Positions 5,996 to 14,300 of a stretch of 64,000 nucleotides of DNA are shown here, in pieces (position 1 is the first letter of the stretch; every line of letters starts with the position of its first letter). The notes under the pieces were generated by a model. It was given only the letters and a program-made list of their open reading frames with translations. It searched no databases and was not told the DNA's origin. Position numbers and translations under genes: made by a program. The stretch spans positions 744,001-808,000 of the forward strand of contig OZ005691.1 of the NCBI GenBank assembly GCA_963930775.1, written 5' to 3'. Source of the stretch: Cliona cf. orientalis (Eukaryota > Porifera > Demospongiae > Clionaida > Clionaidae).

Positions 5996-6869
5996 TTATC
6001 GACCGCAACATGCTTTCTGAGTTTTCCCATCGTCCGTGAGCAGACTAATGTCTCTGTTGCTGCTGTCATGACCGTTGCCTAGGAAACGGTCGTCCACTTG
6101 TTCAGTGAGTACTCTCATTGCCTTCTCGATGGATCCCTGCTTTCGACTCGATACCTTGGCCTCCAGTTTCTTATCGATACCGTGTTTGTCCATGAAGGCG
6201 GCCACCGTCTCCTCCTTGACGCGGACAGTACCCTTCAGATCACACTTGTTTCCCCAGAGGGCAATGACCAGTCGCTCCGACCACCGGCTGTTTCTCCTCG
6301 CCTCCGCCACCCACTCGTTTAGCCGAATCAGCGAATCTTCATCTGTCATGTCGTAGACTAAGATGACGGCGTGGGCATTGCGGTAGTAGTTTGCAGTCAT
6401 GGAGTCATAGCGCTCCAGCCCTCCAGTGTCCCACAGCATAACCTACCAACAAATATATAACATCAAAGTCAATAAAAACAAAATTTGCTATACTTCACGG
6501 ATCAAAGATAAACGAAGTAATTTTTGGCGAAAATTAATTTTGCAAAGTCTCGATCGAAAGGGCCTTGAATGAGGCATAATGAGATTCTAATAGTAACACA
6601 AATTATATTTGATGGAATTATCGGTCTACGCCATAGTTAATCTGCACACCAAAGAAACAGATTATCTGAATACTTACACTCGCTTCTCTGTCGTTGACAG
6701 TGGTCTCGTAGGTCAAGTTCTCGAGGCCGTAGTCTTCGTTCCGCCTCCCGCTGGGCGATCCGATGTCGGCCGAGTGCTCGCTCGGCGTCATACCGTTCTT
6801 GATGTAGGCGAACAAGCTGCTCTTGCCAACGCCTTCCCGCCCCGCTAAAACAAAGCTGTACTCTGGCAT
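5996..6869 (-). CDS. Divergent Rab-like small GTPase 1 (catalytic Gln replaced by Leu)
   Basis: Ras-superfamily GTPase of 212 aa in two exons: 6678-6869 (start at 6869) and 5996-6442. P-loop GREGVGKSS lies near residue 10. G3 is DTGGLE instead of DTAGQE, so the position of Ras Gln61 (Rab Gln67) is Leu. G4 NKCD is canonical. The Switch I threonine is not obvious; the best alignment puts SADIG where Rabs have STIG. The WDTGG and DxxSLxxLxxW patterns and a terminal CCGR (a CCXX geranylgeranylation type) point to the Rab family. I cannot match it to a numbered Rab. The adjacent gene is a paralogue with the intron at the same place, just before G3. A Gln-to-Leu change normally blocks GTP hydrolysis, so this protein may be held in the GTP state or work as a scaffold; that is inference. 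Confidence 0.85.
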
Positions 6870-7082
6870 GGCTTCCTTCAACCTTTGAAACGAGCAAACT
6901 GATGAATCAGCAAAAACCCAACCCCCACCCCTGCTTATCGAAATGGGAGTGACCGAAATATTCACGCGTCATTGAATTTAATCATCATCGATACATCACG
7001 CCATTAATTATTAATGAAATTTTACCGAAGTACAATTCATATCAAAACACACACAAAATAATTAAAGTTTATAAATAGATGC

Positions 7083-8043
7083 TTAGCATCTAGATAATAT
7101 CATTTGCATACATGACGGTCGCTCATCTTCTCCTGTCTTAGGGTTCAAGACAATCGTAGGATTCTCTTGAGGTACAGGTACTCCCTTCATAGTTGTGTCA
7201 ATCTCTTTGATCTTGCTTTGTATGGTGCGCACTAGAGTCTCGTAATTATCAGCCACTGCCGTCTGATCCGTGCCATTGAACTTACACACAAGTTGCCGCT
7301 CGACTTGAATTGGCAAAATGTCTATTAGGTCCCTCAGGTTGTAGTCCTTGACCGGATTGGAGACACTCGAGTAGTGAGAACCTTTCTCGTTGCCCCATAT
7401 GGCATAGACAAGGTGATTTGAGTAGATACAAGCATCACGGGTAACGTCCACCCAAGTCTGGAGTTTATTCAGTGATTCAAGGTTGCTCGTATCATAGACC
7501 AGGATCACCCCAATGGCCTCTCTGAAGTAGCTACGAGTCATCGTCCGGACCCCTCCTTCCTTCTCCATACCAGCCGTGTCTTGCAACAGCAACTATAATA
7601 TATCATAATTATACAGTGTCAGAATCATTATGTATAACTGATCACAAGCTATTATTAAAATTTTATATTAAGTAGCAGGGGCATGGCTCAATCATAGATA
7701 GTAGAAAGGGTAAACCCTTTCTACTATCTATGGCTCAATTTACTCTGAAAACTGGCTCTGAAAAAGCATGATCATTCCCATTATTATACCAGCTAGTTGT
7801 TAGCGATCGATGTCTCACCCTCATTTCACCCTTATCCATGTACTTGTGGCGAAAGGACTCGAACTGAACGCCTTGTCTGCCCGATCTCCTATCCTCCGCC
7901 TTGAACTTGAAGGAATCTTCAAACTCTGTGACCAGCGTGTTGAAGATGGTGCTCTTGCCAGCATCGTGAGCACCGGCTAGGATGATGTGGTAGGGCTGCC
8001 GAATACCGCTAGAACTCGATCTCGAGGGATTCGCTGCTGCCAT
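7083..8043 (-). CDS. Divergent Rab-like small GTPase 2 (catalytic Gln replaced by Met, degenerate G4)
   Basis: Tandem paralogue of the preceding GTPase, 244 aa in two exons: 7819-8043 (start at 8043) and 7083-7592. The N-terminus adds about 20 Ser/Ala-rich residues before the P-loop GAHDAGKST. G3 is DTAGMEKEGG (Ras Gln61 position is Met). G4 is GNEKGS instead of NKxD, so guanine specificity may be lost. The GVILVYDTSNLESLNKLQTW block mirrors AVILVYDMTDEDSLIRLNEW of GTPase 1. The C-terminus ends MILSRC with no CC, CXC or CAAX motif, so prenylation is doubtful. The intron falls at the same codon as in GTPase 1, two to three residues before the G3 Asp, supporting tandem duplication. It may be a pseudo-GTPase. 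Both exons are open and correctly spliced, so it does not look like a dead gene. Confidence 0.82.
7683..7739. repeat. Perfect 18-bp-stem hairpin flanked by 10-bp direct repeats
   Basis: CATAGATAGTAGAAAGGG at 7693-7710 is followed by a TAAA loop and its exact reverse complement at 7715-7732. ATGGCTCAAT occurs on both sides, at 7683-7692 and 7730-7739. It lies in the intron of GTPase 2. It could be a tiny fold-back element with a target-site duplication or a template-switch product. Confidence 0.85.
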
Positions 8044-11300: not shown

Positions 11301-14300
11301 ACTGATACTGCCAGTCGATGGACTCTTGACCTCCGAGGTGGGTGTGGCCGTCATCGAGTCGTCCCCTGGCTTGGACTTTGACCCTATGAAGAGTGTTTCC
11401 ACGAGGCTGGTGCTGTACCAGTATCGACGGAAGGCGGTGATGTCATTCAGACGCCTCATGTCGTAACCCAGCACCAGGCTAGCAATGTGAGTAATCACTG
11501 AAACAGAAAGAAAATTATGACATAAGAGACTATTTTTAAGTTTTAGCTGCTATTTTATGAAATTCCTATAATTATTACACAGGTACATGTACATACACAA
11601 AAAATTTGATGTTAATCATATGAATCATACCTGATACTTGTAGCTTATTGTGCAGCTTATAGTCGTCCACGCTCCTTGCCCCGCCTCTTCCGGCCACGCC
11701 CCTTCCTGCTCCGGGCATCATTGCCAGTACACTCTTCCTGCTGAGGTGGATGAATGCCTGACCGAGCGTCAAGCTCAAAGCCTCCTTCTTCTCGACGGCT
11801 GGCTCCCTCAAAGGTTGCTTCAGCGTTGAGACCTGGGGGCTGTAGAGCTCAAGAACGAAGGTGCTCATGCACCCGGTGATGTAGAGATTGTTGAAAGCCA
11901 CGATGTTCGCCTTAGACTGCTGGAGAGAGGTGCTGTGGATACTGAGGCTGTCTGGGGGACTGCCCCCAGTCGTTGTCATGGCACCCTCCAGGCCTTGAGG
12001 ACAAAAGAGAGAAAACGAGATGACAAAGTTGACGTCAGGACTCTGGATGATACACTCAACTCGAGAGTGTGGCCGACAAGTGAGGTAGACGGTCGAGGGC
12101 TGGATCTGGAAGGCTAGAGTCACATGAACGGGAAATGAGATTGGCCAAGACTCTGCCGTCTGCTGTTGAGGGGCGTGGTCTCCTCCCCCTCCTCCTCCCT
12201 CTTCCCCTCCACTCTCCCCTTCAGAATCACTGCTAGAACTGCTTGTCACAACTGTGGCCGCTATGGTAGGTGTGGCTACACGCTCGATGAATTCCAGGAG
12301 GCTAGGAGTTAACTTTATATCCTCCGGTAGTGAGGCCACAACGGCAGAGACAGAGAGAATCCCCTTTTTCACTGGAAGGGCCGGCTTAGTGTCATCAGTA
12401 GCCTCCTGAGTAGGAGCAGATTGTGCTGATGTCAGCATTTGGTGGGGTGTGGGGATGGTTGCCATGGGAGCTGGTGATCGTCTTGGAGAGGTAGGGGGTG
12501 GAGCATTGTGGGTGGAGTAGCTCCGCCCCACAATGGACTGGTAGTGTGCTTTGACCGTGAGTGCTGGTATTAGTATGACTGTCTCGACACTGGCTGGTTT
12601 GGAGGGGTAGAGCTTGCTGCTGTAGGCCTCGTAGGAGGGAATGATGGTAAGTCTAGTGTGGGAGCCATGCTCCGACGACGTGGGAATGGAGAATCGACGA
12701 CCACCAACGTCACTGCAACAGTGTGTGTGTGTGTGTGCGCATGTAGCAACATCATGTTATGTTTGAAAGGCCTGGCATGTAATTCCTACGTAAATATTCG
12801 TAAGCCTCCCCACTTAATTTTTAGTAATTATATGTAATAATATTATGTCTATGTAATTTTTATGTAAGTTTCATATAACAGGGCTCCCTTGTACATGTAA
12901 GTGAAACCTACGTAAAAATATTACATAGCTTGCATGTAACATATATACTTATAATCACAATTATACACAATGTCATGTAAAAGTTTTATAATTACATATA
13001 AGAGGAGGCATACGTACATGTATAGTTACATAATTTATTAGTGGTCCCCTTACATTCACGTAATCTCCAAATTACACGTAAGGGTCCCCCCTTGTGTCAT
13101 AAACAGCTTACACCAGCTTACCAATTACATCATTAAATGTTACATGTATACTATTTTTGTTATATATACTATATACAAAGAAAAATAAATTTTGCTGGAT
13201 ATTGTCCGGTAGATAGAATTTTTCAATATTTTGCTGGATATTGTCCGGCAGAAAGAATTTTTCAATATTTTTCTGGACATTGTCTGGCAGAGAGAAATTT
13301 TGCTGGACATTGTCCGAGTATTTTTTTATTTTGCTGGACATTGTCCGGCAGAAAGAATTTTTGCTGGATATTGTCCGGCAGAAAGAATTTTTCAATATTT
13401 TGCTGGACATTGTCCAGCAGAAAGAATTTTTCAGTATTTGCTGGATATTGTCCAGCAGAAAGAATTTTTCAATATTTTGCTGGATATTGTCCGGCAGAAA
13501 GAATTTTTCAATATTTTGCTGGACATTGTCTGGCAGAGAGAAATTTTGCTGGACATTGTCCGAGTATTTTTTTATTTTGCTGGACATTGTCCGGCAGAAA
13601 GAATTTTTGCTGGATATTGTCCGGCAGAAAGAATTTTTCAATATTTTGCTGGATATTGTCCAGCAGAAAGAATTTTTCAGTATTTGCTGGATATTGTCCA
13701 GCAGAAAGAATTTTTCAATATTTTGCTGGATATTGTCCGGCAGAAAGAATTTTTCAATATTTTTCTGGACATTGTCTGGCAGAGAGAAATTTTGCTGGAC
13801 ATTGTCCGAGTATTTTTTTATTTTGCTGGACATTGTCCGGCAGAAAGAATTTTTGCTGGATATTGTCCGGCAGAAAGAATTTTTCAATATTTTGCTGGAC
13901 ACTGTTCAGCATAGAGATATTTTGCTGGACATTGTCCGGCTGAAAATATTTCAAAATTTTGCTGGACATTGTCTGGCAGAGAATTTCTTTTTTGGTGGAC
14001 ATTGTCTAGCACAGTAATTTTTTAACCTACTGTAACCTACTGTAACCTCACAATTACAATGTCAGACACTAACATTACTAACTTGTAATTATAATAATAA
14101 TAATAATAATTAAGCCTCCCTGCTTATATGTAATTGTAATTATTATATAATTATATTATTGTAGGTCTCATCTGTAAGCCTCTCCCCTCTTGTAATACTG
14201 CATACATTTTTTTACCTTTCTTCAGTCTGCAGTTTGATGGTTCCGTACTCCACACTGATGGTGATGTCTATCTCCACGTCAATGCTTGGAAAGATGAATC

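Follow-up and report, generated by a model that had tools for sequence, protein, structure and literature searches.

Two neighboring Rab-like GTPase genes without the catalytic glutamine, and a wider set of such loci, in the genome of the sponge Cliona cf. orientalis

Introduction

The catalytic glutamine of Rab GTPases positions the water molecule for GTP hydrolysis. Rab24 and Rab25 are vertebrate Rabs in which this glutamine is replaced, with one fixed replacement each. TBC-type RabGAPs are said, in work attributed to Pan in 2006, to use a dual-finger mechanism and to bring their own glutamine. Very low GTPase activity is reported for Rab24 (PMC4756281). Glutamine mutants of Rab5 and Rab33B are described as retaining near-normal GAP-stimulated hydrolysis, whereas those of Rab1 and Rab35 largely do not (PMC3919270, section 13).

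Rab-like proteins with more extensively altered G motifs have been described in protists. They include EhRabX10 and EhRabX3 of Entamoeba, and such proteins have been termed pseudo-Rabs (PMC8514894). Trypanosome RabX2 is reported to lack detectable GTPase activity (PMC2748683). A further study notes lineage-specific Rabs whose placement is difficult and describes two animal groups that vertebrates have lost, RabX4 and RabX6; it reports RabX4 from Amphimedon and assigns RabX6, along with Rab30, to the animal groups derived from Rab1 (PMC3425129).

The sponge Cliona cf. orientalis harbors intracellular dinoflagellates and erodes carbonate; its assembly odCliOrie1.1 has a published QV of 58.0 (PMC12639293). 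The genome analyzed here comprises 216.79 Mb in 149 contigs. The window, i.e., the whole stretch of 64,000 nucleotides from which the analysis started, corresponds to positions 744 to 808 kb of contig C3. It contains two adjacent Rab-like genes, designated gene 1 and gene 2, which turned out to belong to 14 Rab-like loci without the glutamine. Like Rab24 and Rab25, these are natural Rab-type genes with the catalytic glutamine replaced. They differ from them in that the replacing residue is T, V, G, L, M, I, or R, and in one locus the motif is lost, in contrast to one replacement each in Rab24 and Rab25. In a comparison by description, they share with the protist RabX proteins named above a Rab-like, probably lineage-specific character and altered G motifs, but the organisms and the motif changes are others.

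Results

Analysis of the window revealed that the two genes occupy positions 5996 to 8043, which extend exactly from the stop codon of gene 1 to the start codon of gene 2, and that both are encoded on the minus strand. Each consists of two coding exons separated by a phase-0 GT-AG intron; the splice sites were picked by eye. Exon 1 of gene 1 (6678..6869) contains the start codon, the P-loop GREGVGKSS, and a switch I region without threonine. It is followed by the intron (6443..6677) and by exon 2 (5996..6442), which encodes DTGGLE, NKCD, and a CCGR end and closes with the stop codon; the deduced product has 212 amino acids. In gene 2, exon 1 (7819..8043) carries the start codon and the P-loop GAHDAGKST, the intron covers 7593..7818, and exon 2 (7083..7592) encodes DTAGME, a broken G4 motif, no SAK motif, and an SRC end before the stop codon, giving a product of 244 amino acids. 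The intron directly precedes the beta-3 strand carrying G3 in both genes (VMLWDTGG in gene 1 and LLLQDTAG in gene 2). Within the gene 2 intron, positions 7693 to 7732 form a perfect hairpin, an inverted repeat with 19-base arms and 2 bases between them; no second copy of it was found in the window at up to three mismatches. The neighbor of gene 2 on the same strand is a BLTP1-type lipid-transfer gene, and beyond gene 1 there is a plus-strand gene encoding a class V aminotransferase, probably NFS1. At about 13100 to 14000 of the window, both strands carry repetitive open frames in more than one reading frame, which suggests a tandem repeat array.

Both deduced proteins matched the Pfam Ras family (PF00071; cutoff, 21.6 bits), gene 1 with 96 bits and gene 2 with 42.7 bits. 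Gene 2 scored 31.1 bits against the NCBIfam model small_GTP, which is under the cutoff of 42.5. Alignment with other Rabs of the same genome placed an aspartate (gene 1) and an arginine (gene 2) at the position of the switch I threonine. Gene 2 has a three-residue insertion after DTAGME, lacks the G4 motif NKxD (it reads GNEKG), and has no G5 SAK motif in the aligned place; at the position where ordinary Rabs have SAK, gene 1 has SSR. The C terminus of gene 1 (ACCGR) is a predicted double-cysteine prenylation-type motif, and that of gene 2 (ILSRC) is not a prenylatable end. These results bear out the original prediction that both genes are Rab-like and lack the catalytic glutamine, that gene 1 has also lost the switch I threonine but keeps NKCD and CCGR, and that gene 2 has a broken G4 and no prenylation cysteines. 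The consensus RabF motifs are IGVDF, KLQIW, RFRSIT, YYRGA, and LVYDIT. Comparison by eye revealed two close counterparts in gene 1 (YYRNA and LVYDMT) and two partial ones (VMLW and RYDSMT); IGVDF is absent.

Searching the Protein Data Bank (PDB) yielded Rab5, Rab2, Rab27, and Rab1 as the best matches of gene 1 (60 chains listed of 736) and RASEF, Rab2, Rab4, and Rab18 as those of gene 2 (60 chains listed of 164). This spread over several subfamilies agrees with the earlier observation that the two proteins could not be matched to a single named Rab. Neither Rab24 nor Rab25 was present among the 60 chains listed for either gene. The top listed match of gene 1 is a Rab5A chain printed with DTAGLE, presumably an engineered mutant.

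The missing glutamine had been open to explanation by a local sequencing error. This is very unlikely because the residues at this site differ across 14 loci, and it is further countered by the published QV and by ordinary, glutamine-bearing Rabs in the same assembly. GC at third codon positions is 0.695 in gene 1 and 0.576 in gene 2 (GC of the window, 0.455), and the chance that a random frame of the genes' own base composition would be open is about 2e-3 for gene 1 and 3e-4 for gene 2.

Beyond the window, four further Rab-like genes without the glutamine (R1 to R4) are located at C3:730.3-735.1 kb, about 15 to 20 kb from genes 1 and 2. Their G3 motifs read DTGSTE (R1), DTAGVE (R2), DTGGGE (R3), and DTAGGE (R4). 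Six such genes are thus found within about 22 kb (C3:730-752 kb), with T, V, G, G, L, and M in place of the glutamine. This cluster consists of a group of four and a group of two about 15 kb apart; at least one RRM gene and the aminotransferase gene intervene, so it is not one unbroken tandem array. Elsewhere on C3, DTAGME was read in R7 (9235 kb), R8 (9287 kb), and R9 (L064; 9241 kb, 9240600-9241800), and DTAGIE in R10 (9420 kb). R11 and R12 (C17:6524 and 6531 kb) also have DTAGME, R13 (C8:5468 kb) has DTGSRE, and R14 (C18:6648 kb) has lost the motif. With genes 1 and 2, this brings the loci read genome-wide to 14, with seven different replacing residues in the recognizable motifs. Thirteen of the 14 loci keep the Asp-Thr and the Glu of DTxGxE and 11 keep the Gly, but none has the Gln; R1 and R13 lack the G3 Gly as well, and R14 lacks the whole motif. 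A cysteine end of the Rab or CAAX type is present in 10 of the 13 loci in which the C terminus was read, gene 2 being one of those without it.

The genome contains 64 DT[AG]GQ sites, compared with 4 for the reversed pattern; 19 of the 64 fall outside the listed Ras-family matches. Among the 150 Ras-family matches listed (of 157), 45 have a DT[AG]GQ site, 39 cover G3 without one, and 54 do not cover G3; 12 long frames (400 amino acids or more) were set aside. The 39 matches comprise 12 of the glutamine-less Rab-like loci, 2 Rap genes, 1 Rho gene in which an intron interrupts the motif, and 24 unread matches, which may be other variants or intron-cut motifs. Gene 2, which is absent from the list, and R14, whose match begins after G3, lack the glutamine and stand outside the 39. 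Threonine at this position is normal for Rap, and the two Rap-like genes (C3:3049 kb and C14:1195 kb; DTAGTE) were excluded from the count. Four other loci were read and not counted: L078 (Rho-like), L079 and L080 (glutamine present), and L081 (Ras-like).

Several other GTPase loci were observed in the course of this survey. Five very similar G3 exons, which we take to be Ran-like, lie at C6:10.691-10.743 Mb (L058 to L062); all five carry the glutamine, and this array was ruled out as a source of extra members. On C4 (G000:C4:8918213-8926585), four weak Ras-like matches follow in series, with one open frame each and no DT[AG]GQ site. Frames of ~1400 to 1700 amino acids with a partial Ras-family match are found at C16:402-953 kb and 5516 kb, C10:7090 kb, C18:3063 kb, and C5:9545 kb; these frames, several of them along C16, possibly encode Roc-type multidomain proteins. 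Two Rab genes about 140 kb apart (L006 and L007; C1:14424 kb and 14564 kb) are identical over the compared stretch, representing either a recent duplication or an assembly duplicate. In C1 Rabs (L018, L019, and L006) and others, G4 reads GNKIE, in which the last Asp of NKxD is changed to Glu, and the glutamine is kept.

The original prediction regarded genes 1 and 2 as tandem duplicates on the basis of a common intron position and a similar block between G3 and G4. Both features were found: the phase-0 intron precedes beta-3 in each gene, and identity is 43 to 44% across 67 to 69 residues around G3-G4 (31% over the whole beta3-alpha5 region). Genes 1 and 2, R1 to R4, and R10 each have one intron, located before G3, and an exon 2 that stays open as far as the stop codon; in R1 to R4 the intron is of phase 0 and in the same place. 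R7, R8, and R13 were seen with acceptor and exon 2 only; the sequence examined did not reveal an exon 1 for R7, R8, R12, or R13. The first intron of R11 and the acceptor of R12 coincide with those of the other loci, and each of these two genes has a second intron after G4. The position also occurs in Rab genes with the glutamine intact. A Rab30-like gene (C17:6331 kb), whose exon 2 has human Rab30 as its best PDB match, 5 bits ahead of Rab1, resembles genes 1 and 2 in its two exons, its phase-0 intron before G3, and its Rab-type block after G3. It differs from them in having DTAGQE, the switch I threonine, NKSD, and SAK, and its identity over beta3-alpha5 is 29% to gene 1 and 22% to gene 2. 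The acceptor is at the same place in a further gene that we assume to be Rab43-like. The intron was therefore rejected as proof of tandem duplication; it indicates a Rab background common to these genes.

By pairwise score, neither gene has the other as its best match: ordinary Rabs score higher with both. The best other match of gene 1 in its own genome is an ordinary Rab at C18:4489 kb (68.1 bits, versus 40.0 to gene 2); those of gene 2 are ordinary C1 Rabs (39.7 bits, versus 38.2 to gene 1). Phylogenetic analysis was based on rows bearing names such as Rab1-like and Rab5-like, which are our presumed assignments. A 29-row tree placed the ten glutamine-less loci used from C3 and C8 in one group (support, 93/96), with R11 and R12 from C17 outside it; genes 1 and 2 were sisters (85/84), joined by R1 (82/85). 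After removal of the six G3 columns, the group persisted (93/85), as did the sister relationship (99/91) and the position of R1 (96/84). The kinship of the pair stood in both trees that included the two genes, but their description as a simple tandem pair is too strong, given the nondiagnostic intron, the six nearby genes, and the pairwise scores. The placement of gene 2 is unsure because its branch is very long (2.98 and 2.97 in the two trees).

With the G3 columns removed, holding all twelve glutamine-less rows together was not rejected (p-AU, 0.323), and neither was holding the six nearby C3 genes together (p-AU, 0.425), although the best tree does otherwise in both cases. A further tree included R14 and omitted gene 2, R13, and two short rows; the glutamine-less group was again part of the best tree, with a support of only 58/68; R3 with R4, R7 with R8, R10, and R14, and R11 with R12 were starred subgroups there. 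The Rab30-like gene stood apart from the glutamine-less rows in the best tree, and grouping it with them was not rejected (p-AU, 0.22; gene 2 absent). Several glutamine-less lineages are firmly indicated. A single origin of the set is possible from these alignments; the glutamine was perhaps lost more than once because two C17 loci fall outside the group and the support drops to 58/68.

To describe constraint, recent copies on C3 were compared. The recent pair R7 and R8 has a dN of 0.041 and a dS of 0.177 (dN/dS, about 0.23). R9 is a third recent copy of the gene at C3:9235 kb; its match is lost after about 70 residues, an N stretch lies upstream, and it looks broken. Over 210 nucleotides, dN and dS are 0.068 and 0.176 for R7 and R9, and 0.055 and 0.052, i.e., about equal, for R8 and R9. 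Constraint is not evident in every recent pair, and some members of the set may be decaying, given the values for R8 and R9 and the broken copy; these figures concern the C3 copies R7 to R9, not genes 1 and 2.

Discussion

The reading that we prefer, with a probability of roughly 55%, is that genes 1 and 2 belong to a lineage-specific divergent Rab-like set in which gene 1 encodes a slowly hydrolyzing membrane Rab and gene 2 a soluble pseudo-GTPase; "lineage-specific" is judged here against the genome itself and the PDB chains and, for RabX4 and RabX6, against published descriptions. Gene 1 is probably membrane anchored: the retained P-loop, the Asp and Gly of G3, NKxD, and the CCxx end would permit GTP binding, prenylation, and a membrane location. 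Lack of the glutamine would slow its own hydrolysis and prolong the GTP-bound state, and switching off would depend on a TBC-type GAP that supplies its own glutamine. RabGAP-TBC domains are represented in this genome by 36 exon-level matches. The original prediction suggested a GTP-locked protein. That conclusion is not warranted, since some glutamine-mutant Rabs still respond to GAPs, Rab5 and Rab33B keeping near-normal stimulated hydrolysis (PMC3919270); a long GTP lifetime rather than a lock is most likely for gene 1 on the basis of its motifs. Gene 2 is probably a soluble pseudo-GTPase. It keeps the P-loop and DTAG, and with the switch I threonine, G4, G5, and the lipid site gone, it would bind guanine nucleotides poorly or without base specificity. 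Its role would be to bind, or to act as a decoy for, the effectors of the membrane-bound gene 1 product. Because the residues of DTxGxE are mostly retained across the set and the glutamine in no locus, gene 1 and most of the other loci appear to have preserved GTP sensing and weakened self-inactivation.

The boundary between the two predicted roles may be drawn differently. The missing switch I threonine of gene 1 could weaken Mg2+/GTP binding and make gene 1 a pseudo-GTPase too. Both proteins would then keep the fold and bind partners without cycling between GTP and GDP, gene 1 as a permanently membrane-bound scaffold and gene 2 in solution. The loss of both the glutamine and the threonine and the replacement of SAK by SSR in gene 1 are consistent with this, as is the use of the term pseudo-Rab for protist Rab-like proteins whose motifs are altered (PMC8514894). 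We consider it unlikely, since gene 1 retains the P-loop, DTxG, and NKCD, motifs that serve nucleotide binding. More doubtful is the view that loss of the glutamine reflects relaxed constraint in redundant duplicates on their way to pseudogenes. It would account for a residue that differs in most members, for the long branches (such as that of gene 2), for the one broken copy, and for the pair with dN close to dS. Against it stand the uninterrupted frames, canonical splice sites, and elevated GC3 of genes 1 and 2, together with the dN/dS of R7 and R8 and the cysteine-type ends in most of the loci read.

It is similarly improbable that the two are members of an already named group of animal Rabs, for example RabX4 or RabX6, which vertebrates have lost; the family would in that case be older than this sponge lineage. 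The report of RabX4 in Amphimedon and the derivation of RabX6 from Rab1 together with Rab30 (PMC3425129) would fit this origin, and so would the shared two-exon structure of the Rab30-like gene found here. On the other side, the listed PDB matches of genes 1 and 2 indicate no one subfamily, RabX4 and RabX6 being compared by description. Compared with these alternatives, the divergent set with a slowly hydrolyzing gene 1 and a soluble gene 2 remains our preferred reading.

What looks new here is the scale and the pattern: 14 Rab-like loci without the glutamine in one animal genome, six of them clustered, with seven different residues at one site. Among the matches listed in literature searches on glutamine-less or atypical Rabs, pseudo-GTPases, sponges, and symbiosome Rabs, which covered few subscription journals, no title or abstract addressed such a set. 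Experimenters commonly engineer Rabs that lack the glutamine in order to keep a traffic step active. A natural set with varied residues at this one site would test the need for the glutamine in an animal and its replacement by GAPs, and also how a switch becomes a pseudo-GTPase. A far less probable idea is that the GTP-biased Rabs and their soluble paralogue mark a long-lived membrane compartment that is not turned over; candidates would be the vacuoles holding the dinoflagellates or the vesicles of bioerosion. In a host with intracellular algae and a chromosome-level genome, expression by compartment and by symbiont state would be directly testable.
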